A stretch of DNA of 34,830 bases, taken from positions 1 through 34,830 of the forward strand of contig CASEJM010000018.1 in assembly GCA_949288265.1 (NCBI GenBank), written 5' to 3'. The notes below the pieces were generated by a model. That model saw only the letters and a list, made by a program, of their open reading frames with translations, made no database searches and was not told the origin of the DNA. Shown in pieces: positions 5,949 to 31,178 of this stretch (the stretch's first letter is position 1; each line of letters starts with the position of its first letter). A program made the position numbers and the translations under genes. The stretch is from an uncultured Pseudomonadota bacterium (GTDB lineage: Bacteria > Pseudomonadota > Alphaproteobacteria > Rs-D84).

Positions 5949-6707
5949 TTATATTGCTCTAACAATTCTACAAAACGTAACGCCGTAAATTTCTGCTGCA
6001 CCTGCTTTCTTTAGAACCCTATATAACTCTGCAAACGTAGCACCTGTCGTCATAACGTCATCTACTAACAAAATCTTACGCCCGCGAATTTTATCGGGCT
6101 TTAAAACATCAAATACCCCATGAACATTTTCTTTACGTTGTGCGGCATTTTTATGTCCTATATCTGGACGATATTTACGATAAATACTATTTAAATCTAA
6201 ATTAATTCCAAAAGCCCTTGCAATTGGGCGCGCCAATAAAGTCGCTTGATTATAACCACGATGAAAAAGACGCCTATATGCCAAAGGGACTGGAATTACG
6301 ACGTCTGGTTTAATATCCGCGTCACGCAAAGCCCATATCATAGCTCTTGCCATAAATGCGGCATACTTTATCCGACCGCTATGCTTAAACGGCAACATTG
6401 CTGTTCTTGAAGCCTCATCATATACGCAAGCAGACCTTATCAAATCCAACACGCAAATACCCGACGCACAACTAGGACATTTCGGGTGATTTCCTAAATC
6501 TAAATTTGCAGGAAACGGGTATCCACATTTTTCGCATTTTGGATTTCCAATCCAATTAAAAGACGTCCAACAGTCTGCGCACAATTCACCATTCATAGAA
6601 ACAGGTTCACCACATAACGGGCACGCAGCAGGAAATAAAAATTCGATAAAAAAACGCGCAAATTTTGAAATTGATTTTTTTGCGCGTTTAACATTTTCTT
6701 TTACCAA
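5949..6707 (-). CDS. comF: ComF-family phosphoribosyltransferase-like protein
   Basis: A 252-aa ComF homologue, linked to DNA uptake and handling of incoming single strands in competent bacteria. Two four-cysteine zinc ribbons are visible: Cys29, 32, 43, 46 and Cys58, 61, 77, 80. The PRPP-binding loop ILLVDDVMTTGAT is at 212-224. The start is TTG at 6707, overlapping the stop of the upstream gene by seven bases; no ATG occurs before the first zinc cysteines, so a non-ATG start or translational coupling is required. It is last in the run ftsW-murG-VSR protein-comF. No clear terminator is seen before the convergent 133-aa gene. Confidence 0.92.
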   Translation of the reverse strand: MVKENVKRAKKSISKFARFFIEFLFPAACPLCGEPVSMNGELCADCWTSFNWIGNPKCEKCGYPFPANLDLGNHPKCPSCASGICVLDLIRSACVYDEASRTAMLPFKHSGRIKYAAFMARAMIWALRDADIKPDVVIPVPLAYRRLFHRGYNQATLLARPIARAFGINLDLNSIYRKYRPDIGHKNAAQRKENVHGVFDVLKPDKIRGRKILLVDDVMTTGATFAELYRVLKKAGAAEIYGVTFCRIVRAI

Positions 6708-8074
6708 GACATACTTCTATAAGTTTTTTTACTAATCGTATCACCGAAAATATCCCTACGTTGTTTAGTCAACGTTTCATACTGATCCAATGATATCATA
6801 CGTAAAACCAAACCCTCTTCATCTCGTTGAGACAAAACAGGTAAAATACGTTGTTCTGAAATTCCGTTATCACGTAATACTTGTTCTACGATTGCTAAAC
6901 GACGGGCAGCCAACTTACGCGCTTCGGAATCATTTACAACACTTTGTGGTATAGAAACCTGAACGGCACGTGTTGGGTTACTTAATACAATACCAGAATA
7001 TTCGGTCAACAAGTTGTAATTATCACGGGACAACGCCGCATCTTCATTACGGAATTTTATTTTAATTTCCAACGGACGAATGCCACCTGCTTCCGACAAA
7101 TCACGTTGAGATTTAAAACCTTCTGCGTTTGCCGTCATATCACTTGCTTCATCAAATCTATCATCTATTTGAAACGTAGACAAATGCTTATTTTCCGATA
7201 AGAAAGTCTTTCTAAAAGCCTTACGCAGTTCACTTGGGCTCATCTGAGTCATTTCATCACGCGTCGTAATTATACGCGGTGATTCAGCACGCTTAACGGC
7301 CCGCACGACAACGTCATCAGATGCATCATTCATAGGAACCACCATACGAGACAACATTACCTCTTCTTCCTTAGAAGCAGAAGCATCGGCAATTTTTTTA
7401 TCTTCATCTGGTCTAGAAACCACGCCACGTGATACAACACGACGGGATTGAACACTTTCAACAGGTCTGACAACTTCGCTTACGCTTTCTTCGGCGCGTT
7501 TTTGTAATTCATTTAATCTAGCAATCTGAACATCTAATTCTGACAAAGGTTGTCCTGCTTTATCAGATTGTACTATTGACACAGGTTCGGTGCTACGAGC
7601 GCTTAATAACCTTTGGGACGCCCCATCCAAACTTTCTTCTGGCAGCGCATCATCTGAACGTATAACAGAAAACTCTTGTGGTGCAGGCAACCGAAGCGGC
7701 ATAACATCCGACGTAGAATGCGCCCATAAATCAGAACTAGGTCTACGAGGTGAAAGCACATCTGCTGATGCGATGATTTGTTCACCTGCATCCATCGACA
7801 TAGCCGGCTGTACCGATTGATTCACGGTACTACGAGAAACGACACCACGATTTACATTTTCAGCACGCGTAACTTTTCCGTCATTATTATCACTAGATGC
7901 AACAACAGGTTCTGATTTTTTTACCTGCGTTTCAACTTTTTTTAAAACCGGTTCACCAAACGCAGCCCGCGCCGACACCCCCCCAGCAGCAACGTTTACG
8001 ATTGGTAAGTTCACGCCTGCCACTGCAGGCAACACTACAAACAGCGATAATACAGAGATTGCAATCTGTCGCAT
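6701..8074 (-). CDS. Exported VSR-motif protein with a divergent OmpA-like C-terminus
   Basis: A 457-aa protein with a Sec signal peptide (cleavage likely after PAVAG, residue 20). Residues 30-280 are low-complexity and charged and contain the motif VVSR at 78-81, 213-216 and 218-221, also found in the two large exported proteins at 25524 and 28845. Residues 334-425 resemble an OmpA-like peptidoglycan-binding domain (IKIKFRNEDAALS, then SNPTRAVQVSI and AARRLAIVEQVLRDNGIS), but the usual GHTD segment is replaced by SVVNDSE, so wall binding is uncertain. The Shine-Dalgarno is AAGGAAGGAAAG. It overlaps comF by seven bases and follows murG. No named function is known to me. Confidence 0.8.
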   Translation of the reverse strand: MRQIAISVLSLFVVLPAVAGVNLPIVNVAAGGVSARAAFGEPVLKKVETQVKKSEPVVASSDNNDGKVTRAENVNRGVVSRSTVNQSVQPAMSMDAGEQIIASADVLSPRRPSSDLWAHSTSDVMPLRLPAPQEFSVIRSDDALPEESLDGASQRLLSARSTEPVSIVQSDKAGQPLSELDVQIARLNELQKRAEESVSEVVRPVESVQSRRVVSRGVVSRPDEDKKIADASASKEEEVMLSRMVVPMNDASDDVVVRAVKRAESPRIITTRDEMTQMSPSELRKAFRKTFLSENKHLSTFQIDDRFDEASDMTANAEGFKSQRDLSEAGGIRPLEIKIKFRNEDAALSRDNYNLLTEYSGIVLSNPTRAVQVSIPQSVVNDSEARKLAARRLAIVEQVLRDNGISEQRILPVLSQRDEEGLVLRMISLDQYETLTKQRRDIFGDTISKKTYRSMSW

Positions 8075-15416: not shown

Positions 15417-15935
15417 CTAGTACCGACCGATACAACCCAAATAAGAATTACCCGTGGATTCCAATACATTTATAAACTGAGACTGACTTTTCCCAGTAAA
15501 TAACGCAAGTATTGTACCCGCATCTGTGGCCAGCATATCAGCGACCGTTGCAATACCAGAGTTCATTTTCTTAAAAAAACCGCTGGCCGGGTATATTTCC
15601 GCCGCCAACAGTTGATTTTTACCGCTTTTTGCCGCCTTGGACGCTGTATTTTCTGATTCTATCACCATCAATTGACATTCTGATGAAATGATTAGCTTAT
15701 CTGTAACAATTGCGTTTCCACCTAACAACTCGCCCCACCAACCAGTAGATTCACAGAAAACAGGATAATATACAGTTGCATTCGGATGCTTTTCCAGAAC
15801 ACTCATCAAATCCACGTCACCAGTTATAACGTCTGGCATAACACCAGTAGAATTATTTATAACCTTTCGCGCCAACTGATAATCTGGGTCGGCGTTAGTT
15901 TTTCGAGACCAATAAAGAATCGGAAACTGCTTCAT
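15417..15935 (-). CDS. Hypothetical protein, probably leaderless
   Basis: A 172-aa cytoplasmic-looking protein that I cannot assign. It has no signal peptide or membrane span, mixed alpha/beta character and three cysteines. Notable strings are ATVYYPVFCESTGWWGELLGG and a small-residue-rich region near residues 125-150. The extended -10 TGATATAAT ends eight bases before the ATG and no Shine-Dalgarno is present. It lies between rpmE and the first VirB6-like gene, but the promoter right at its start shows it is transcribed separately from the latter. Confidence 0.7.
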   Translation of the reverse strand: MKQFPILYWSRKTNADPDYQLARKVINNSTGVMPDVITGDVDLMSVLEKHPNATVYYPVFCESTGWWGELLGGNAIVTDKLIISSECQLMVIESENTASKAAKSGKNQLLAAEIYPASGFFKKMNSGIATVADMLATDAGTILALFTGKSQSQFINVLESTGNSYLGCIGRY

Positions 15936-16003: not shown

Positions 16004-17311
16004 TTATTTTTTTAGTGAGGCGTACCATTTTTTTAGGTTTCCCCACATAATTTGTAGATTCTTTTTCGTCGATTCATAATACTTCTCAGGAATTTCCACA
16101 TTGGCAAACAAAGTTTTTACCAATGCGGGTATCATTCCCATAAACATAGAAATAAATAGCCCCATTAAAAGAATCGTTATAAAACTATCGTTTTTCATTA
16201 ACAACCCGTCCATTAAAATGGTTGAATCATTTTCTGATAGCGCCAAAGCCAACCTATCTGCCCCATTCCACTTTCCAAAAACAGCGTTTAAGAACATGAT
16301 AGAAAACGTTACGAATACGCCGACAAGTGCTATCCCTGCCGTTGCTTTTATCACATCATCTATCATCGTTTTTATATTACTTTTTCCATCAGGAAATATT
16401 GGCCACCCTTTAAATAACCAAGACATCAGCATAAACGGCAGCATGATTAAATCCATTGATAATTTTATAAATACCTCTAAAAAATATATTGGTATCGGCA
16501 ATAAAGCGAAAAAGAATAATAAAAGAATCAATAAACCCGCAAAGAAAATTGGTACATTTGGGAAAATCGGTATATTCCATAAAAGATGATGCATATATTC
16601 CTCATTAAAAGCCATATTCAACATTGTCCACCCCACGGTCATACCTAGCCCCGTCATCTGATGAACGTTTGCTATTTCGCAGGTTAAATTATGCTGTAAC
16701 CGAGGAGAAAAAGCCCCGGAATTTGCCGCGTCAACACTTGCGACTGCAGGATCTGCAACAGCGGTTGCAACAACGCATTTTGCAAATTCATCGTTTCCTG
16801 ATACAACTCTATTTAAAGACAAGCCCACGTTAAAAATCGGTTCTATTACGATGCTGGTAATCAAACGCGGTAACGGAACAACCAACAAAGCAGTAACAAA
16901 AGCAAGCTTAATGAATTTTGTACTAAAATCACTAACAACACCCCAAGGTTCTTCTATCTTTGCGTTTATAAAACCAGAAAACAATTTCCAACCAAACCAT
17001 AAGGCCATCAGAACCACAGAAAACGGTAAAATTACAGAACTAAGCGCACTATAAACCCGCGGTATCAGACCAGACATCGTCGCCATCACATCATAAAACA
17101 TCTGACACGACCAACAACTGCTAAAGAAGTTCAGCGCATCCGCCATATTTACAGGAGCAGCAGTTCTATATATTGAAAAACCTGCAATTACGCCAAGCCC
17201 GGCGATTGTCCCTACGACGAACGGTGCAACCGCCCCCGCCGAAAACGGCAAGAATGATAAAAAAACTATCCAAAACTTTTTTAACTTATTCATTGTTTTT
17301 AAGTATATCAT
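16004..17311 (-). CDS. VirB6/TrbL-like type IV secretion membrane protein (A)
   Basis: A 435-aa polytopic inner-membrane protein with a signal-like N-terminus (ending SAGAVA). After a periplasmic segment containing CWSCQMF it has spans separated by PRLITSIVIEP, a soluble loop with two cysteines, then a cluster of strongly hydrophobic segments and a basic tail. This layout fits the VirB6/TrbL family, which forms part of the inner-membrane channel of type IV secretion systems. It shares the CxxC-x2-F and PR-x-ITSI-x2-EP motifs with the protein at 18654. ATG at 17311 has AGGG six bases ahead; the ATG at 17293 has none. It is transcribed away from the other four. Confidence 0.75.
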   Translation of the reverse strand: MIYLKTMNKLKKFWIVFLSFLPFSAGAVAPFVVGTIAGLGVIAGFSIYRTAAPVNMADALNFFSSCWSCQMFYDVMATMSGLIPRVYSALSSVILPFSVVLMALWFGWKLFSGFINAKIEEPWGVVSDFSTKFIKLAFVTALLVVPLPRLITSIVIEPIFNVGLSLNRVVSGNDEFAKCVVATAVADPAVASVDAANSGAFSPRLQHNLTCEIANVHQMTGLGMTVGWTMLNMAFNEEYMHHLLWNIPIFPNVPIFFAGLLILLLFFFALLPIPIYFLEVFIKLSMDLIMLPFMLMSWLFKGWPIFPDGKSNIKTMIDDVIKATAGIALVGVFVTFSIMFLNAVFGKWNGADRLALALSENDSTILMDGLLMKNDSFITILLMGLFISMFMGMIPALVKTLFANVEIPEKYYESTKKNLQIMWGNLKKWYASLKK

Positions 17312-17326
17312 ATTTTGCCCTAAATG

Positions 17327-17335
17327 TGATATAAT
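17327..17335 (+). promoter_or_regulatory. Extended -10 promoter of the VirB6-like operon
   Basis: TGATATAAT with hexamer 17330-17335, 26 bases before the ATG at 17362. It lies in the 50-base gap between the divergent VirB6-like genes. Confidence 0.65.
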
Positions 17336-17361
17336 TGAAAAGATAAAATAATATAAAGAGA

Positions 17362-18657
17362 ATGTCGGGACTTAAAAAAACTTTTCTATCCGTACTTTTA
17401 CGCGTACTGCCCGCGGTGTTTTTTATATGCATTCTACTTTCACCAAGTTTTGCTTATGCCGAGAATCGTACAATAGTTGACGCCTTAAACTTAGCACCGC
17501 TGATACCGACCATACTAGACGCTTTGATGACCGTTGCAACGGGTGGATATGAATTCTTTGTCGGAAACGGTACCGGTATAATTTATATTCTTGTTTGGGG
17601 ATTTTTGGCTGTATCACTTTCTTTATACGTATTGAAAATGTATTTTCCAAAACTATGGGTATCGTTTTTCGGTTTTTCTGGTGGCGGCGAAATGATTGAA
17701 GGCGTAGATGGTATGCAAATTGCCACCAATATCATTAAACCGGCACTTCGTGCAATAATAGCCGTCACAGTATTATTGCAACTTAAACCAATTTATTTGA
17801 CAGAATGGTTAATAAATCCATTTCTGCAATTCGGTTCTTTATACACACAAAGCATAACTGAAACAATAAACTCTTCTGGTATTAACGCCCCAAAAATAGA
17901 ATGCCCACCATCAATAATCGAGCAAAACTGGATAACTAAATCAAGCTGTGAGTTTTTAGTTCAACCAGTATCTGACATATCTTATGCAAACAACACAATT
18001 ATCAAACGCGGTTTTGATTTTATTAACCGCGGTTTACGCGGGTTGATAACGCTTATACCGCATGGTGGCGAAGACTTTTTAAACTTCATTACAGGTATAA
18101 TACTTGTATTTACTTTCATTTCTAGCAACCTATTTATGGCATTGCTAATAATTCAAGCAATATTCAATTTCGGTATGGCACTTATACTTTACCCATTCCA
18201 GGTATTAACTTACGTTGTTAAACCAAGTGAAAAGTGGTTGGACATATGGCCCGCATTTAACGGTATAACGAAATCATTGCAGAAAATCGTAATAACTATG
18301 ATTTCATGCTCTTTTATATTATGTGTAAACATCGCGATAATAAAATCTTTATTCAGATGGAATTCATCCATATTTGTTGTTGCCGCGGGTGGAACGGCAA
18401 CTTCAAACGTACCGGTAACAGTAAACAGTGCACTTGGTTTCGGGGAACATTCTATTTTATGGCTATCTGCGATATTAACTTTCTACCTTATGTTCCATAT
18501 TTTCAACCTGACCAAAGAAAAATTAAATTCGTACGTAGGTTCTGGTATGGATAAAATGTATAATAAGGTAATAAGTGATTCAAAAATACTAGCAGCACGA
18601 ACAAAAAAAGCAAAATCGGCAGTCAATACAGTAGTCGGATGGTTTAAAAACAAATGA
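17362..18657 (+). CDS. VirB6/TrbL-like type IV secretion membrane protein (B)
   Basis: A 431-aa polytopic membrane protein with an N-terminal signal sequence (ending SFAYA). A first group of spans (about residues 70-140) is followed by a loop with three cysteines and a second hydrophobic core from about residue 230. LKPIYLTEWLINP occupies the place of the PR-x-ITSI-x2-EP motif of its relatives. The tail is basic (KKAKSAVNTVVGWFKNK). AAAGAGA lies just before the ATG. It opens a four-gene operon; its TGA stop overlaps the next ATG as ATGA. Assignment rests on topology, paralogy and clustering. Confidence 0.72.
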   Translation: MSGLKKTFLSVLLRVLPAVFFICILLSPSFAYAENRTIVDALNLAPLIPTILDALMTVATGGYEFFVGNGTGIIYILVWGFLAVSLSLYVLKMYFPKLWVSFFGFSGGGEMIEGVDGMQIATNIIKPALRAIIAVTVLLQLKPIYLTEWLINPFLQFGSLYTQSITETINSSGINAPKIECPPSIIEQNWITKSSCEFLVQPVSDISYANNTIIKRGFDFINRGLRGLITLIPHGGEDFLNFITGIILVFTFISSNLFMALLIIQAIFNFGMALILYPFQVLTYVVKPSEKWLDIWPAFNGITKSLQKIVITMISCSFILCVNIAIIKSLFRWNSSIFVVAAGGTATSNVPVTVNSALGFGEHSILWLSAILTFYLMFHIFNLTKEKLNSYVGSGMDKMYNKVISDSKILAARTKKAKSAVNTVVGWFKNK

Positions 18658-19874
18658 ACGAAATAATAAATCCTTTAATTGACAAAGGTGTACAGTGTTG
18701 GGGCTGTGACATATTTGACCGATTATTTCAGATTGTCTCTGAAACGGCGGCTGCGGTATATGATAAACTTGCAGTATTTTGTGTCGTTCTATTTTTAGTA
18801 TTATTTGCTTTCTATGTAATAAACGCAGTATGGAAAAATATGAAGAACGATATTTCTGATCCTTTTTATCAGAAATCTATAAAACCCGTATTTATAAATT
18901 CAATCGTAGCTTTAACATTTTTAAGTATTGGAATAGCACTTCCACGTTTCATTACAAGCATAACATTCGAACCTGTTGCTGATATTACCCTTATCTATAC
19001 ACAGAACATGTTGAAAACTGATAATGAAACGATAAACGAACAAGTACACTATCAACCACAAGAGATGTCTGATGACGGTTTCTACCGCCCACAATTACGC
19101 GATAAAATTATACTGCTTATGAAAACAACCATAACGCAATTTCAATCATATATGAAACTTGGTATTGCGGTAATGGATAAAGCCTTTTCTTTAAACGCCT
19201 TATTAGGAATAGGGTCTTTAATTAAGCACATAATGTTATTTTTCATAGGGGTCTATTTATTTTACGGTTTCTTTAAGTTCTTTATTCGTTTCTGTTTTTA
19301 CTTCGTGGACATAATCATTGCAATGACTTTCTTTGCTTTTTTCTTCCCCTTATCGTTAATACTTGTAGGGTTTAAAAGCGGTGACGCCCCAAACTGGCTT
19401 TCTTCTCTTGGAAAAAACGTTGGAACAAATCAATTTAAGAAATTAATAGAGTCTATAATTGGTCTTGCATCTGCCGTAATGACTTACATAATACTGATGA
19501 TAATTATAGCAAAATTCTTTTCTGAACCTGGGCAAAGCACATCAGAAATAATGGAACTTATTACAACAGGGCAAATTTTTTCGGGTGATTTATCCGAAGA
19601 AAATTTAGCGGCAATGACACTTGGTTCATGCGTTATATTAGTATATGTGTTAAATTTCATATATGATCAAATTCCGCAAGTAACCTCTATGATACTGGAC
19701 TCATTTGGTGTATCATCAGAAAATGCATTAAGTGAAGAATTGGCAGAAGGTGCAATGGGTATAACTAAAAATATAATTAATATTGCAAAAAATACCGGAA
19801 AAAATATCTTAAACAAAGGTAAGAACGAAGAAAGCAAAAAGAAAGAAGACGGTACTAAAAAGAACGAAAAATGA
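18654..19874 (+). CDS. VirB6/TrbL-like type IV secretion membrane protein (C)
   Basis: A 406-aa polytopic protein without a classical signal peptide. CWGCDIFDRLF near residue 15 and PRFITSITFEP near residue 103 match the protein at 16004. A second hydrophobic core follows (about residues 170-300), rich in phenylalanine. The C-terminus is strikingly lysine-rich (KGKNEESKKKEDGTKKNEK), a probable cytoplasmic tail. It overlaps both neighbours by four bases (ATGA), indicating translational coupling and matched production of the family members. Confidence 0.72.
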   Translation: MNEIINPLIDKGVQCWGCDIFDRLFQIVSETAAAVYDKLAVFCVVLFLVLFAFYVINAVWKNMKNDISDPFYQKSIKPVFINSIVALTFLSIGIALPRFITSITFEPVADITLIYTQNMLKTDNETINEQVHYQPQEMSDDGFYRPQLRDKIILLMKTTITQFQSYMKLGIAVMDKAFSLNALLGIGSLIKHIMLFFIGVYLFYGFFKFFIRFCFYFVDIIIAMTFFAFFFPLSLILVGFKSGDAPNWLSSLGKNVGTNQFKKLIESIIGLASAVMTYIILMIIIAKFFSEPGQSTSEIMELITTGQIFSGDLSEENLAAMTLGSCVILVYVLNFIYDQIPQVTSMILDSFGVSSENALSEELAEGAMGITKNIINIAKNTGKNILNKGKNEESKKKEDGTKKNEK

Positions 19875-21307
19875 AAGCTAAACTAATTATGATTGCCATC
19901 AAGTTTATTATGGGCGCAATTGCGTTAGGTATAGGCATATGGTATTTATCTTCTTCTATTGGCGGTGCCGCAATAACATATACAAGCCTTGAAGGTTTTA
20001 TGGGGGCAATTGGCGTAACTAACGGAAATATTGCTTCGTCGAATGGCTGCTTTTTATGCGGATATATTTCACAATTATTTGCCGTAATCGGTGATGCTGC
20101 AGAAATGTTCTGGGACGCAATGGTTGATAACATATGGATATTACTATCTATCGGATTTGGTATATTTTTACTTGTTTATACTGCGCAATACATTTTTGAC
20201 GCGGCAAAAAAAACTGCAACACTTGATGAAAATGAGAAAAAACTAGAATTCGCTGCATGGTTCGACAAAGTATGGCGCCAAGGAGCAAGAGTTTTAATAG
20301 TCGGTGCATTAATGGGTGCACTTGGAATGGGTGGAAACGCTGCTTTACGCACAGTCGCAAACATTACAATAACTCCCGTTATGTTTGTAGGTGCAGAATT
20401 GTCTATGGCTGCGACGGGGGTATCAAGTGCGGCACAATGTGGCGCACTTACAGAACCGAACGAAACCACAGACATATTAAATCCGATATTACAACCATTC
20501 ATGTGCGTTATGGGGAATATTAACAGTGTTATGCTGGCTGGTGCCGCCGGTGGTTTTTCACTTATGAATTACGCTTGGTTGGACTTAGGTGGTGGTGTAT
20601 TTACATGGCTAGCGGGGCTTTCATTGGTCATATTGTTTTTAATCATAGGTTTTGATTTAGTATTTCAAATTCTTTCTGTAGTATTTAAGTTGGTCTTTTT
20701 AATCATATTTTTGCCACTTTTACTAGCCGCCGCGGCATTTGAACAGACTTGGTCTTTGGCAAGTGGGGTTACAAAAAATGCAATAAATATGTTGGTTAAT
20801 TCCGCAATACAAATAGTCGGCATAACATTAAAAGTTATTATAACTTACGCAATTATTGCATATGCAGCGGATTCTTACTTCCCCGGTCCAAACGATGGTT
20901 ATAGCGCAATATTACCACCACTGTTAGGTCAAGAAATTGAAAATCCTGATGCTCAAACGATGTCAGTTATAAATGTGTTTTCTACATGTGAACAAGTGGC
21001 GACCGTTGACGGAGAAATGGATAAAGATAAATTTAAAGCTTGTTTTACAGCGCAGCGCACCCAAGTAGAAAACAAGTATCCCGGTGCTTTTAATTTCATG
21101 AAAGACGGTTGGGATTTCATGCTAATGACAATATTACTGTTCGCGTTATACTTTTACGCAATCAAACCAAAAGTTGATAGTATCATAACAGCCGGTGGTA
21201 AAGAAAAATTTGATTTTGGCACATGGACAAAAAATTTAGGTAAAAAAATATGGAATTCACCTAAACAAATATTTGAATTGATATCAAGTGCAATGGGTAA
21301 AAAGTAA
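19871..21307 (+). CDS. VirB6/TrbL-like type IV secretion membrane protein (D)
   Basis: A 478-aa polytopic protein. A signal-anchor-like N-terminus is followed by a periplasmic segment with GCFLCGYISQLF, the same CxxC position as in proteins A and C. A long alanine- and glycine-rich hydrophobic core covers about residues 200-340, and a periplasmic loop with two cysteines precedes a last span near 415. This alanine/glycine-rich core is the part most like canonical VirB6. It overlaps protein C by four bases and protein E by one (TAATG). Confidence 0.74.
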   Translation: MKAKLIMIAIKFIMGAIALGIGIWYLSSSIGGAAITYTSLEGFMGAIGVTNGNIASSNGCFLCGYISQLFAVIGDAAEMFWDAMVDNIWILLSIGFGIFLLVYTAQYIFDAAKKTATLDENEKKLEFAAWFDKVWRQGARVLIVGALMGALGMGGNAALRTVANITITPVMFVGAELSMAATGVSSAAQCGALTEPNETTDILNPILQPFMCVMGNINSVMLAGAAGGFSLMNYAWLDLGGGVFTWLAGLSLVILFLIIGFDLVFQILSVVFKLVFLIIFLPLLLAAAAFEQTWSLASGVTKNAINMLVNSAIQIVGITLKVIITYAIIAYAADSYFPGPNDGYSAILPPLLGQEIENPDAQTMSVINVFSTCEQVATVDGEMDKDKFKACFTAQRTQVENKYPGAFNFMKDGWDFMLMTILLFALYFYAIKPKVDSIITAGGKEKFDFGTWTKNLGKKIWNSPKQIFELISSAMGKK

Positions 21308-22605
21308 TGAAATTGTTAAAGAAAATCTTTAATAACTTAATTGCAGCTGTTATTGCGGCATTATTAATGACGCCCGTTACCGCCGTCGCAGAAACAAACG
21401 TACCTTTTACAGAAATTGGTGATTATGGTGATTGGTTAACCACAGATAACTTATACAAATTTAATCTTAACATTGGTTCTGATATGACAGAGTTTCAAGA
21501 AACCTTTCAAAAGAACCAACTTGTACCAGATTACGTGCCTATTGAAGCTAAACTAGGTTTTGCAATGATGGACGCTTTGTCCATACTTGCAGATATTCTT
21601 GATTCATCATTAGTACGCTTCGCTATCATCTTTATGATTATTGCATATATATTATGGATAATGTTTGAAGCATATAACATGATGACAAAAGGTTCCAGCG
21701 CAATGGAACTTGGAATTAATATCGTAAAGAAAGGCGCCATAATTGCAATATGGTCTATCATATTAGCCCAAGGGCCCGCTCAGGTATTTATGTGGATTAT
21801 GGGGCCGATACTAAGTGTTGCAACATATATGTCTGATTTAATATTAAATGCAGTAACAAATACTGTTGGGTTAACGTTACCAGACACATGTAATGCCATA
21901 CGAGAATATGCTGCTGCCAACGCTTCTTCAGGAATGATAATAGACCCTAAAGCTGCTGCTGATATGATATGCGTACCGACAAGATTATCTGGATTTTTTA
22001 CGACGGCAATTGCTATCGGTTGGAAATGGATGATTTCTGGTATCGGAATCAGTGCTTTTACTATGTTTGTTGGGGCCGCGTTCATAGTTTTATTTATATA
22101 TAACGCCTTCAAATTTACCTTGATGGGACTTGGGGTTATAATGGATTTATTTTTATCTGTAATAATGCTTCCATTCACTGCTATTGCAGAAACTATAAAT
22201 AAAACATCCTACAACGGTATAGTTGGAGATATATTTAACGGCTTCCTAGGCTTATTTAAACCAGAATCATTATCTAATCAAATTCAACGTTTTATAAACG
22301 CTGCTATTTATTTTGTATCACTATCCATAGTCATAGCTGTATGCGCCGCAATGCTATCAGGCGCAATCAGAGTAGATCTTTCTTCAGAAATACCATCTTT
22401 AGATAATTCGGGCTTTATGATTACCTTCCTTACAGGTGTATTAGTTGCATATCTGGCGAACAAAACATCAAAAATAGCTGAAGATTTAGGTGGAAAAGTA
22501 AACGAAAGCTTTAGTAAACAATTTGGCGACGATATAAAACATTGGTGGAACCAATTATATGGTAAAGGTAAAAACATTGTAGAAATGTTTCGAGACAAAA
22601 AATAA
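21307..22605 (+). CDS. VirB6/TrbL-like type IV secretion membrane protein (E)
   Basis: A 432-aa polytopic protein with a signal peptide (ending PVTAVA) and a soluble periplasmic segment up to about residue 80. Spans follow (ILWIMFEAY, VFMWIMGPILSVA), then a loop with two cysteines and a second core. The tail is charged (KHWWNQLYGKGKNIVEMFRDKK). It lacks the CxxC motif of A, C and D. It is the last gene of the operon; its stop is 22 bases from the convergent uvrD stop, with only A/T-rich sequence between. Confidence 0.72.
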   Translation: MKLLKKIFNNLIAAVIAALLMTPVTAVAETNVPFTEIGDYGDWLTTDNLYKFNLNIGSDMTEFQETFQKNQLVPDYVPIEAKLGFAMMDALSILADILDSSLVRFAIIFMIIAYILWIMFEAYNMMTKGSSAMELGINIVKKGAIIAIWSIILAQGPAQVFMWIMGPILSVATYMSDLILNAVTNTVGLTLPDTCNAIREYAAANASSGMIIDPKAAADMICVPTRLSGFFTTAIAIGWKWMISGIGISAFTMFVGAAFIVLFIYNAFKFTLMGLGVIMDLFLSVIMLPFTAIAETINKTSYNGIVGDIFNGFLGLFKPESLSNQIQRFINAAIYFVSLSIVIAVCAAMLSGAIRVDLSSEIPSLDNSGFMITFLTGVLVAYLANKTSKIAEDLGGKVNESFSKQFGDDIKHWWNQLYGKGKNIVEMFRDKK

Positions 22606-25496: not shown

Positions 25497-25525
25497 AAAA
25501 AAAACGGTGTAAAACACCGTTTTTT
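25497..25525. terminator. Bidirectional terminator between dnaQ and the 815-aa gene
   Basis: ACGGTGT-AAA-ACACCGT (25504-25520) with A and T runs on either side serves two convergent genes. Confidence 0.88.
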
Positions 25526-27971
25526 AATCTTCTGGAACACATTCGTATTCAGTTTCATTTTTATTAACTTGTTTATAACCACTATCACACAGGCAAACAT
25601 TGTTAGTCATCTTATATCCTGTGTCGCATACACATAATCCACTACTACCTCTTCTTGAATGTGCAGGACATGATGCGTAACAATACGAACCAACTCTATC
25701 ATAATTCTCAATACAACGGCATCTTTCATTTGTACATTGGGTATTGCTTTGACCAAATTCACTTCCACAAGTTGGGTCATACCTAGAATTATCCGGACAT
25801 AGTAATGACTGATAAAACATTTCAGATATATTATCAATGCAATTATTATCGTTATGCCCACCATCTTTAGTATTACATGAATTATCCGTATCTTTATCAA
25901 ATACAGCATAAGCGCATGTTAAGGCGACATTACGACAAGCCCCGCGCATAACATTATAAATTCCTCCAATACTTGCGCTTGTAGACCAAGCATTAACCTG
26001 CGTTACCTGCTGATTATAACAATTAGCTATGTCCAACATACAATTAGACGCATAGTCAGATATAATTTGCTGCTGCTCCGCTTTAATATTTACCATAGCA
26101 CGTTGAACGTAATTAATAACGACATCATTAAAACTTATGTAATTTCCGCGATCATCATAAGTATAAGCCTGACATTTATCAAGAACTGCGCGACACAAAC
26201 CTTCATCGGTAACTTCTTGTTTTGTACCAATTTTCTGCAACAAATATTTTACTATACACGCACCGTTATTACCCACTGTTTTTTCATCAGTAACCTCAGC
26301 GATACAATCGTCATAACTAATTTGCATATTATAAGAATCTTGCAGGAATTTTTTTGTTATATCTGCATTATTATAATTTTCCATAAAATCGGTAATATCA
26401 GTAATATCTTGCCCTAAAACAACCTCACCATTTTCATCAATATATCTTTTGGTTGGGTCCAAACATTTGGTGTAATCTGCGCCACATACCATCTCGTCTG
26501 TCATACATGTGTCCAAAGCAGCAATACAACCTTTTGCATCGTATTGATTTTTATTTTCTAAAACCGCCAATCTAGCTTTTTGCAACATCAAATTTGCGCT
26601 ACGAACATTTGAAACCAAGGTTTCATTCATTTTTGTTAAACCTTGTTCATATGAAATGCAATCCTTATCAATGGCCAGATCGTAATTTGCCGTTATCTGA
26701 TCAATGTTTGCCCCGGCAGATTCGCACTGAGTCAAAACAGTTTTACATCTATTCTTTGCGGCATTATATAAATCTTTACCGCGTAAATTAGAAAAATTCG
26801 TCGTCCCCATATTCAAAAAGTCAAGATTGAATATATCCGCAATGTCAGAAGAGAAATCAAGATCCATATCTAAACCAAATGCAGAAGATCCATAACTAGA
26901 CGTAGTTGCACTTGCCGGGTCGCGGATAAGAGCTTCTATTTCTTCCAACATATTACGGGTTTCAGATGTATCTTTTGCACCGCTTAAAGCCTCTTCTGCT
27001 TCTGTTTCACTCATAATTGCTCGGATTTCATCTGCAGACAAACCGACATAACGAATTCGTTGGGCAACCTCATTTAATTGATTGTTTGCGTCCGTTACAG
27101 CCTCTTGAACGCGCGTATAGTTTGATAAATTAGAAGAGCAAGAACAACGCCCCTGATTAGAATCTATTACCGCACAGAATTGATCCATACAATCATTATA
27201 TTGCTGCTGACATGAAGAATTTAAATCAGAAGTTAAATCTAAACGTTGCTTTGCTTCTGCAATTGATTCAGCGGTTGCAACATTTGTCGTTGTTGTCGTC
27301 GTCACGGCACGCGACTGAACACCGCGAATTTCTTCATCAATATTAGAACCAGTTTTAATGTTAGTACCGGCAATAGTTGCACGTCCACCAACCTCTGCCG
27401 TAGAAGGTCGCAAAGTTAAACCAGCACGACGAACAGCAGGGTTATTATTTATACTTGCAGCTTCGACCCTTGGATTAAGCCCAACCGTATTCACAGTTGC
27501 TTCCAAATTTTCACGCGCAGAATTCGTACTAGTCTGAGAAATGCTTGATCTAGACGCAGCCCCACTTTTTACAGTATTCGCAGTTCCACGTCCAGTTGTA
27601 TTTGCTGTTGTAGTAGAGTCTAAATTTAACAAACGAGAACCAACCCGAATCATACTAGAATTATCTACAACATCATCGCTAACGGTTGTTGCACTACGAC
27701 TTATAACGCTACGTTCTGTATCGTTCCGTACATCTAAATCGTTTGAATCTTCTGCCCCGGCTTTTGAAGTTACAACTGTCGCTGCAGGTGTAGTTGTACG
27801 TGATACCTGAGCCCTAGAAACAGTACCAGCACCACGATTACTGGTACTAGTTTGATTATTAGAATTTCCTGTTGCCGGTACAACACGAGACACAGTTGTT
27901 ACAGTACCGTCTGCAAATGCAAACGGCGCAGTCAAAGCAATCAAGAAAAAGCACAAAGGCAATCTTCTCAT
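25524..27971 (-). CDS. Large exported cysteine-rich VSR-motif protein (paralogue 1)
   Basis: An 815-aa secreted protein of no family known to me. A signal peptide ends at about residue 20 (PFAFA). Residues 21-250 are serine/threonine-rich with VSR-type motifs (TVSR, QVSR, VISR). From 254 on there are 34 cysteines. The first module has Cys254, 261, 266, 276, 278; other pairs are spaced C-x6-C (409/416, 482/489/496/503, 593/600, 644/651, 679/686) in helical sequence. The end (768-811) is a short EGF-like stretch (CVCDTGYKMTN, CLCDSGYK). The ATG lies 11 bases after a TATAAT, with no Shine-Dalgarno. Its relative at 28845 shares the first module exactly, so the pair look like duplicated surface or periplasmic structural proteins. 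Confidence 0.8.
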   Translation of the reverse strand: MRRLPLCFFLIALTAPFAFADGTVTTVSRVVPATGNSNNQTSTSNRGAGTVSRAQVSRTTTPAATVVTSKAGAEDSNDLDVRNDTERSVISRSATTVSDDVVDNSSMIRVGSRLLNLDSTTTANTTGRGTANTVKSGAASRSSISQTSTNSARENLEATVNTVGLNPRVEAASINNNPAVRRAGLTLRPSTAEVGGRATIAGTNIKTGSNIDEEIRGVQSRAVTTTTTTNVATAESIAEAKQRLDLTSDLNSSCQQQYNDCMDQFCAVIDSNQGRCSCSSNLSNYTRVQEAVTDANNQLNEVAQRIRYVGLSADEIRAIMSETEAEEALSGAKDTSETRNMLEEIEALIRDPASATTSSYGSSAFGLDMDLDFSSDIADIFNLDFLNMGTTNFSNLRGKDLYNAAKNRCKTVLTQCESAGANIDQITANYDLAIDKDCISYEQGLTKMNETLVSNVRSANLMLQKARLAVLENKNQYDAKGCIAALDTCMTDEMVCGADYTKCLDPTKRYIDENGEVVLGQDITDITDFMENYNNADITKKFLQDSYNMQISYDDCIAEVTDEKTVGNNGACIVKYLLQKIGTKQEVTDEGLCRAVLDKCQAYTYDDRGNYISFNDVVINYVQRAMVNIKAEQQQIISDYASNCMLDIANCYNQQVTQVNAWSTSASIGGIYNVMRGACRNVALTCAYAVFDKDTDNSCNTKDGGHNDNNCIDNISEMFYQSLLCPDNSRYDPTCGSEFGQSNTQCTNERCRCIENYDRVGSYCYASCPAHSRRGSSGLCVCDTGYKMTNNVCLCDSGYKQVNKNETEYECVPED

Positions 27972-28844: not shown

Positions 28845-31178
28845 TTATTGACTTACACAGGCACCATTTTGAACGGTATAACCAGATTTACACGATACCA
28901 AGCTGCATCCGCTCCAAGACTGAGTACCTGTATTCCACGTCTGTGATGCTGATTCTGCATTTGGATCAGAATGTATACATGATTTTGTATTAGGTACGCA
29001 GCTATTTCCTTCTAAATGCTGCCCTGCTGGGCAACTTGTCGCCGACCAGCCACCGTTTGTATTTATACTGGACCAATTACGTACACCATCAATACCAACG
29101 CTTTGTAAGCATGCTTCACGTAACACAGGAGAAGAACCCTCTACAGCATCTCTTGCATATGAATCGTCCAAGATTTCTGCCAAAGTTATAATATTACGAC
29201 ATGTATTTGTTTCATAATCAGTCGTATTATCACACTTCTGTGTAGAATCATCTTCTTTATCTATAACCGCCAGCAATGAATTATTTGGCGCACTGCAAAT
29301 CATTTCTTCATAGCAATGAGGAACGTTTGCAACCTGGGCACAATATGTCTTTATACGGCTTGTACTCCAAGAAGTATTTGTCGTTTCTTGTGTCGTATAA
29401 CAATCATACAATTCTGCCAAACATTCGTTAAAGTTATTACGTGCCGTCTTATAATCACTTGCAATAGTTTCTTGTTCTTCTTGATAGAACTCTAAACGTT
29501 TTTGTTGCAAGGCCTGCTGTGCAGCAACTTTCTGATATCCTATATTCTGAGCAGTTGTGCTTAATTGCTCACCATACGCATCACAATCAGCATTCGCATC
29601 CAGCGCATATTTCTGCATGATACTACGACGCGCATCCGCAACCGGTTTACGTAAATCTGCATAAGGGTCACCAGAGGCAGTTGTGTAACCAAAGCACGTT
29701 GCAGAATTAGATGCAGTATAACCAGTACTCGGTTCAATAAAATCTAATTCATACGTACCTGTATTGGACACAGAAATATAACTATTATAATTATATGGGC
29801 ACTGCGAACGTCCGTTACCACATTTGTTACTGCCAGAAGGAGGCGTACCACACGCTTCATAAATACCATTAAAGCAAGAATCCAAAACGCGGTTACATAC
29901 GTTGTTATGGGCATATTCAAATAATTCATAGCCCCACGTTTCTGCCAAAGAATCTTTTAAATTATCAGCGTCTGCAAAAGCCCCATCTATACCAGCCAAA
30001 CTTCCAACAACGTTTGTAAGATTTTCAAAAGCAGATGTTGTGCTATCAACATCATCTGTTAATATTGTAAGCGTCTGTTCTTTAGCTTCTGCCCAAGACT
30101 GCAATGATGCTAAAATATCACTACCAGAACCATCTAACGAAGCAATATCGAAACCGAAGTTATTCCCTTCTTTCTTACAATACGATGGCGCAGAAGATTT
30201 ACTACACGAGCTATCAAACAAAGCATGTTGTTCGCACCAATCACCAAATTCATTATCAGACGCGGTACCGTTTTTACTTACATCTTTCCAAGAAACACAG
30301 TTCATAACTTTTTCTGCATCAGTTAATTGAAAGGCTTGACTTACATCTTTACCTTTAGTTGCAATTAACAGTGCTAATTCACCCGAAACTTGAATTAATT
30401 CTTCATTTGCTTTTTCCAATGCAGCTTCTGCTTCTGCGAAAGCTTTTACACGACCGGCACATGCGCAACGACGTTGCGCAGCATTACGTGCAGTACAAAT
30501 TTCATCCATACACGCATAATACGATTCCATACAGTTATTATAAGCTTCTGCAGAAATCAAACCAGTTGTAGAATCAATTATGTTTGAATAATTACCCGTA
30601 TACAACTTACTTTGCAAATAAGTATATGTATTAGTTGCAGCAGAATTACTGCCACGTATTGCGCTGCCTTGCAAAGAAATGCGTGCGACATTATTCGTAG
30701 CTGTACGCGAAACAACACTACGCGCCGCAGTAGCACCATTAGTAGCCGTAGTACGAGATACTACATTTCTTGGTGCCCCCCCCCTAGACACTGTTGCACT
30801 TGTCGCAGTTCCACGAGAACTTGATACACTTGGACGACCAGAAGCAGTAGAAACAGAACTTGTCGCAACTGTCGGGGCTGTTACAGTCCGAGAAGTTACA
30901 CCACGCGCAATCGTCGCAGAATTATTAGACGCTGTCGTACCGCGTGATACAACACTTGACGATGTATTACGTGCATTTGCCGGACGAGAAGAAGAACGAA
31001 CGCTGCCGTTGGATCTAGGCGACTGAACATTACTTGTATTAGTTACCATCGGCGCAATCGGGTCAGCAAATACTGCCCGCATAGATATTAACGTTGAGCA
31101 AACAAAGAATGCACCTGCCAGTAAAAATACTGTACCCATTGCATTCTTACAATGTTCTGCGAAATTACGGCTTTTCAT
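28845..31178 (-). CDS. Large exported cysteine-rich VSR-motif protein (paralogue 2)
   Basis: A 777-aa secreted protein. An N-terminal hydrophobic stretch (15-38, ending RAVFA) is a signal peptide with a long n-region. Residues 40-180 are serine/threonine/arginine-rich with VVSRG, VTSRT, TVSRG, VVSRT and VVSRT. From 216 there are 30 cysteines. The module Cys216, 223, 228, 238, 240 has exactly the spacing of the 815-aa paralogue, and later C-x6-C pairs (428/435, 453/460, 586/593) and a WSTS string (604-607) also match it. The end is a cysteine-rich tail (CPAGQHLEGNSC, CKSGYTVQNGAC). AGGAG precedes the ATG and the leader is about 78 bases. Function unknown; a surface or periplasmic scaffold stabilised by disulfides is my inference. 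Confidence 0.8.
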   Translation of the reverse strand: MKSRNFAEHCKNAMGTVFLLAGAFFVCSTLISMRAVFADPIAPMVTNTSNVQSPRSNGSVRSSSRPANARNTSSSVVSRGTTASNNSATIARGVTSRTVTAPTVATSSVSTASGRPSVSSSRGTATSATVSRGGAPRNVVSRTTATNGATAARSVVSRTATNNVARISLQGSAIRGSNSAATNTYTYLQSKLYTGNYSNIIDSTTGLISAEAYNNCMESYYACMDEICTARNAAQRRCACAGRVKAFAEAEAALEKANEELIQVSGELALLIATKGKDVSQAFQLTDAEKVMNCVSWKDVSKNGTASDNEFGDWCEQHALFDSSCSKSSAPSYCKKEGNNFGFDIASLDGSGSDILASLQSWAEAKEQTLTILTDDVDSTTSAFENLTNVVGSLAGIDGAFADADNLKDSLAETWGYELFEYAHNNVCNRVLDSCFNGIYEACGTPPSGSNKCGNGRSQCPYNYNSYISVSNTGTYELDFIEPSTGYTASNSATCFGYTTASGDPYADLRKPVADARRSIMQKYALDANADCDAYGEQLSTTAQNIGYQKVAAQQALQQKRLEFYQEEQETIASDYKTARNNFNECLAELYDCYTTQETTNTSWSTSRIKTYCAQVANVPHCYEEMICSAPNNSLLAVIDKEDDSTQKCDNTTDYETNTCRNIITLAEILDDSYARDAVEGSSPVLREACLQSVGIDGVRNWSSINTNGGWSATSCPAGQHLEGNSCVPNTKSCIHSDPNAESASQTWNTGTQSWSGCSLVSCKSGYTVQNGACVSQ

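Follow-up and report, generated by a model that had tools for sequence, protein, structure and literature searches.

The DNA considered here is a stretch of 34,830 nucleotides (contig CASEJM010000018.1 of assembly GCA_949288265.1, referred to throughout as the window), and its central feature is a block of five genes, B6a to B6e, that very probably encode VirB6 subunits of a type IV secretion system (T4SS). The host is Candidatus Enterousia, a lineage of reduced gut Alphaproteobacteria in the GTDB order Rs-D84, hence outside the order Rickettsiales; its own genome was examined through searches and individual stretches. A preliminary description of the window had reported five polytopic genes of 406-478 amino acids, four on the plus strand and one divergent, and these open reading frames (ORFs) were confirmed. 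B6a (16004-17311, minus strand, 435 amino acids) has a signal-like N-terminal segment followed by a VirB6-fold core (residues 62-406 of the AlphaFold model, about 16094-17128, minus strand); directly ahead of the core helices lies a CxxC motif (C66 and C69, 17105-17116, minus strand) that is 100% conserved in 76 sequences. A divergent intergenic region of 50 bp (17312-17361), where a scan found no excess of promoter-like matches over shuffles, separates B6a from B6b (17362-18657, plus strand, 431 amino acids), which has a signal-like N-terminus and no CxxC. On the same strand follow B6c (18654-19874, 406 amino acids), B6d (19871-21307, 478 amino acids) and B6e (21307-22605, 432 amino acids), all VirB6-like, the last again with a signal-like N-terminus and without CxxC. 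The junctions are as previously described, with four-base ATGA overlaps between b and c and between c and d, and TAATG between d and e. Each of the five proteins contains 6-7 hydrophobic segments. No other secretion genes were found within the 34.8 kb, in agreement with the preliminary description; the block is flanked by uvrD, an inositol-monophosphatase-like gene, cell-wall genes and gyrA.

Structures of two members were predicted with AlphaFold: B6a from 58 sequences (predicted local distance difference test score, pLDDT, 69.9; predicted template modelling score, pTM, 0.63) and B6d from 73 sequences (pLDDT 70.6, pTM 0.68). In a fold search of the PDB the top three rows for B6a were all VirB6/TrwI of R388 (Z 12.9, 12.7 and 12.1), the alignment with 7o3v_F spanning 256 of 261 residues, and the same protein stood in the top three rows for B6d (Z 12.5, 267 of 272 residues). 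The R388 structures matched by the two models were 7o3v, 8rt9 and 8rtd (Z 12.1-12.9), and Foldseek gave both models a probability of 1.00 against TrwI. B6d also matched DotA (9ngy) with Z 8.5 over 264 residues. Unrelated helical folds scored Z of about 7 and below, leaving a gap to VirB6 of about 4-6 Z units. Because helical folds may reach middling Z by chance, weight is placed on the agreement of two separately built models on VirB6, with near-full coverage, in a genome that encodes the rest of a T4SS. In these predicted models, B6a and B6d carry the VirB6 fold.

The five proteins belong together by profile comparison: hhalign relates B6a to b-e at 96-98% probability, B6b to B6a at 96% and to B6e at 97%, and B6e to both B6a and B6b at 97%. 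The B6a profile also matches B6c directly (E 3.5e-13), B6c being its sole other match in this and related genomes. A strict CxxC precedes the first core helix in a, c and d, and is absent from b and e; in B6c it is formed by C15 and C18, both 100% conserved, and in B6d by C60 and C63, which together with C190, C212, C373 and C391 are 97-100% conserved. C179 and C211 of B6a are likewise invariant, and the invariant extra cysteines of B6a and B6d may form putative periplasmic disulphides. A tryptophan conserved at 91-100% follows the central proline segment in a, b, c and d, placed by position rather than by residue-level alignment to VirB6, and may correspond to the essential conserved tryptophan in the middle of VirB6/TrbL proteins; none was seen in e.

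Weak but specific links to known VirB6 proteins were obtained once the sequences were considered as a group. The combined profile scores 69-80% against the rvhB6 groups of the rvh T4SS of Rickettsiales, as opposed to <1% against FtsW and MraY, and it reaches E 5e-5 with canonical TrbL/VirB6 proteins and E 8e-14 with the VirB6 encoded beside virB4 in locus L200. B6 profiles leave 67 of the 612 polytopic ORFs of the loci unmatched. Further, five-gene clusters from f27, a different family of Alphaproteobacteria, are hit by the B6a profile with E down to 6e-26, and in one of these clusters three of the five proteins match PF04610 (TrbL/VirB6) at E 1e-3 to 1.7e-5, just under cut-off, and match little else. 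PF04610 was reached or nearly reached only by such related clusters of other families.

B6a to B6e are real genes. The full set, with a divergent from b-e, was present at all 74 Enterousia loci with sufficient flank (72 by ORF calling and 2 by tblastn, which recovered two apparent losses of B6a). The genus-wide order is imp, p172 and a on one strand and b, c, d and e on the other, then usually uvrD. The gene p172 (15417-15935, minus strand, 172 amino acids, family unassigned) is transcribed in the same direction as B6a, 68 bases downstream of it. It had been described as an orphan among housekeeping flanks; uvrD is indeed a neighbour, while p172 trails B6a and has 79 distinct relatives adjoining B6a in Enterousia loci, with a highly conserved CSTGWWGELLG core. 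It matches nothing in Pfam or NCBIfam, and the loci examined in other families contain no homologue of it; fixed next to B6a across the genus, it is a possible candidate for a new T4SS accessory gene.

The arrangement extends beyond the genus. In families f2, f4, f5 and f6 of Rs-D84, five adjacent collinear genes lie on one strand and are often longer (up to about 990 amino acids). Of the 120 possible pairings of the five positions, the collinear one came first in six of the ten comparisons between families (Enterousia with f6 and f5, f6 with f5, f4 and f2, and f4 with f2) and ranked 5-21 in the other four. In a tree of 67 sequences all position-4 (d) genes, from five families, are grouped together by a branch whose SH-aLRT (Shimodaira-Hasegawa-like approximate likelihood ratio test) value is 96, and the five positions require 7 label changes where the minimum is 4 and shuffled labels need 41. 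B6d is the most conserved member order-wide, and B6c has position-3 orthologues in f5 and f6; B6b, at position 2, shows the weakest orthology of the set, and positions 1, 2 and 5 are less certain because of long branches. Orthology of the five positions across families is supported, most strongly for d, by both gene order and tree. The set is therefore ancient and vertically inherited, the simplest history being that five genes were present in the Rs-D84 ancestor and that B6a was then inverted in the Enterousia line.

The f27 loci (L185, L189 and L190, from genomes of 1.2-1.4 Mb) contain VirB6-like genes, five in a row, that encode about 420-860 amino acids each and have no VirB3 or VirB4 next to them. 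One-to-one orthology with these clusters was considered but is not supported, collinear pairing ranking 5-37 of 120. Five paralogues per genome were also counted in other orders (G266, G355, G203, G344, G062, G099, G073, G205 and G303, with G396 having five of which one is short); in G224 and G320 the retrieved loci contain four. These counts outside Rs-D84 are suggestive only, the remaining genomes being limited by contig ends.

The remainder of a VirB/D4 system is encoded in the same genome in separate islets: virB3-virB4 followed by a 207-amino-acid secreted protein (contig C13, L032:12198-15601), virB8-virB9-virB10 (C12, L055:290-4996), virD4 (C15, L056:7022-9244) and a virB11-like ATPase of 331 amino acids (C25, L213:6451-7446). 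Homologues of VirB4 and of VirB8-10, whose absence the preliminary description had named as grounds for abandoning its reading, are thus both encoded, and the search that it proposed for virB3, B4, B8-B11 and virD4 recovered each of them. Matching islets are present in genome G003 and in other families, and in G037 a VirB11-like ATPase that matches TIGR02788 at 4e-38 adjoins virB8-9-10. The B6 cluster and virB3-virB4 are on different contigs in this genome; in G003 they share a contig (C1), with about 100 kb between them. At the threshold used, each searched Enterousia genome gave one VirB4 and one VirB10 match, with VirB4 conserved at 74-88% identity, and no further VirB6 beyond the five was detected in this genome. 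No PF03432 relaxase was found, a result limited to that family as other relaxase families were not searched; this mildly favours protein transfer over conjugation.

The secreted protein after virB4 (L032:14978-15601, plus strand) is found at the same place in other Rs-D84 (L059:8334-8951 and L062:8411-9088) and has no Pfam match; it could be a component resembling VirB5 or VirB7. The VirB9-like protein (L055:1006-2544, plus strand, 512 amino acids) shows a weak match to SPOR at its C-terminus (E 0.002); if real, this would link the T4SS with septal peptidoglycan.

It is therefore very probable that the five genes are VirB6 subunits of a chromosomal, vertically inherited VirB/D4-type T4SS, old paralogues kept as five orthologous positions across Rs-D84. 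The VirB6-like identity first proposed for them is upheld by R388 VirB6 being the top match for two separately predicted members, by weak but specific profile matches of the wider group and by the rest of the VirB/D4 system in the genome. Several results weigh against this. PF04610 gave no match, even a weak one, for the five proteins or anywhere in this genome; Pfam and NCBIfam scans of B6a-B6e returned nothing at cut-off, with DUF2177 and FAM70 below it, and PDB sequences searched with a profile likewise yielded no match. Single-gene profiles compared by hhalign with canonical TrbL/VirB6 or rvhB6 were insignificant, so the family claim rests on the fold and on the transitive links. The Foldseek E-values are only 0.01-0.05 and the B6a and B6d models are of middling confidence, while B6b, B6c and B6e, which have no models of their own, are placed in VirB6 by homology to the other members. 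VirB2 (PF04956) is weak or absent in Enterousia and was not convincingly found.

In the proposed system the VirB6 subunits would form the inner-membrane and periplasmic translocation channel at the base of the stalk, the other parts being supplied from the separate islets, and the apparatus would deliver protein to, or take material from, a partner cell. That five orthologous VirB6 genes are all kept, in genomes stripped of most pathways and showing a single match each for VirB4 and VirB10, suggests that one apparatus uses five subunits which cannot replace one another. All five would then join the same machine, most likely as a mixed ring of specialised subunits by analogy with the homopentamers of VirB6 and DotA. 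In its strictest form, with one copy of each paralogue per ring, the protochannel in Rs-D84 would be an obligate heteropentamer of broken symmetry, and that of rvh perhaps likewise. Known VirB6 and DotA being pentamers makes this attractive, yet Anaplasma has four VirB6 paralogues and some genomes here show four, and it is offered tentatively, as slightly less than an even possibility. The gene overlaps, from which tuned stoichiometry had been suggested, are weak evidence for a hetero-oligomeric channel. Such tuning is possible for b-e only, because B6a is transcribed in the opposite direction, and overlap lengths vary across the genus (at the d/e junction, -4 in 20 of 79 loci, -1 in 20 and other values in 39). 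Five conserved orthologues together with a pentameric VirB6 make the better, if hypothetical, case.

Alternatively, each of the five proteins could form its own homopentamer, giving alternative channels for different times or substrates. The five are very dissimilar to one another, B6a is transcribed separately from b-e, and VirB6 and DotA rings are homomeric in known systems (PMC12981334, PMC12857230); against it, b-e are packed with overlapping ends, all five are retained together at 74 of 74 loci, and the searched Enterousia genomes have a single VirB4 and a single VirB10 match; in Ehrlichia, moreover, VirB6 paralogues reportedly interact, to go by the title of a 2009 article by Bao et al. 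On balance separate homopentamers seem rather unlikely.

If the cluster were left over from a conjugative element, or belonged to a decaying system that no longer functions, the dispersal of the genes and the lack of a convincing pilin in Enterousia would be accounted for, but this is very improbable given ORFs and invariant residues that are maintained genus-wide and in the same place in nearly all species, the conservation of the other VirB/D4 parts (as for VirB4 above) and the lack of a relaxase of the one family searched. About as improbable is that the five are an unrelated class of transporter-like polytopic proteins sharing only a general helical arrangement with VirB6, a view that suits the missing family assignment and the chance scores of helical folds but not the ranking of VirB6 first by both models with a clear gap and near-complete coverage, the transitive links to PF04610-positive clusters, the 67 other polytopic ORFs of the same loci that B6 profiles leave unmatched or the VirB/D4 system in the genome.

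Elsewhere in the window, two large secreted-looking proteins (815 amino acids, 25524-27971, and 777 amino acids, 28845-31178, both minus strand) have many cysteines and no Pfam match. Their N-termini are rich in Ser, Thr and Asn with repeated VSR motifs, a style that recurs in a 457-amino-acid protein (6701-8074). Both large proteins are candidate surface proteins or T4SS substrates.

Enterousia has been assigned to Rs-D84, its genomes being of about 1 Mb or less, and a partner-dependent life has been inferred for the order; unexplained membrane proteins are mentioned in that study, a secretion system is not (Begmatov et al. 2025, PMC12306168). No link between Enterousia or Rs-D84 and such a T4SS was found in the library of papers searched (subscription papers, including the 2023 description of Enterousia, were outside its scope). 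The conserved T4SS offers a concrete candidate means by which these bacteria could contact a partner. Several VirB6 paralogues per genome are already known from rvh; what is new is a multi-VirB6 set outside Rickettsiales and parted from virB3-virB4. A T4SS with many VirB6 proteins is accordingly not peculiar to Rickettsiales: gut bacteria with tiny genomes, forming a large order, carry one as well. The long-standing question why Rickettsia retains five rvhB6 genes becomes testable, since the number of recurring orthologous genes equals that of the subunits in known VirB6 and DotA rings.

The closest comparison is with rvh, where several divergent VirB6 paralogues lie in tandem (rvhB6a-e, five in Rickettsia) and T4SS genes are scattered in islets (Gillespie et al. 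2009, PMC2653234). Enterousia shares the several distinct, ancient paralogues, five in its case, and the scattered islets. However, the rvh virB6 genes directly follow virB3-virB4a, in agreement with the contrast drawn in the preliminary description, whereas virB3-virB4 lies elsewhere in Enterousia; rvh, in which virB4, virB8 and virB9 are duplicated, has two VirB4 where a second was not seen in Enterousia at the threshold used; and RvhB6 proteins average 674-1154 amino acids (PMC2653234) against the compact proteins here. For these reasons, and because it belongs to a different order, the Enterousia system is not filed as rvh; the likeness is one of paralogue number and islets, below one-to-one orthology with rvhB6a-e. 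Anaplasma and Ehrlichia also have tandem divergent VirB6 genes, but these are four, in the virB3-virB4 islet, some with very long C-terminal extensions (PMC7648143). VirB6/TrwI of plasmid R388 shares the fold over nearly its whole chain with B6a and B6d; it differs in being a single, shorter gene product without the extra N-terminal segment, and forms a homopentamer at the stalk base, while DotA and IcmX form a pentameric protochannel in Dot/Icm (PMC12981334, PMC12857230). DotA of Legionella has a fold in common with B6d, but is a single gene, much longer, and of type IVB, whereas VirB3, B8, B9, B10 and B11 of Enterousia match VirB families.

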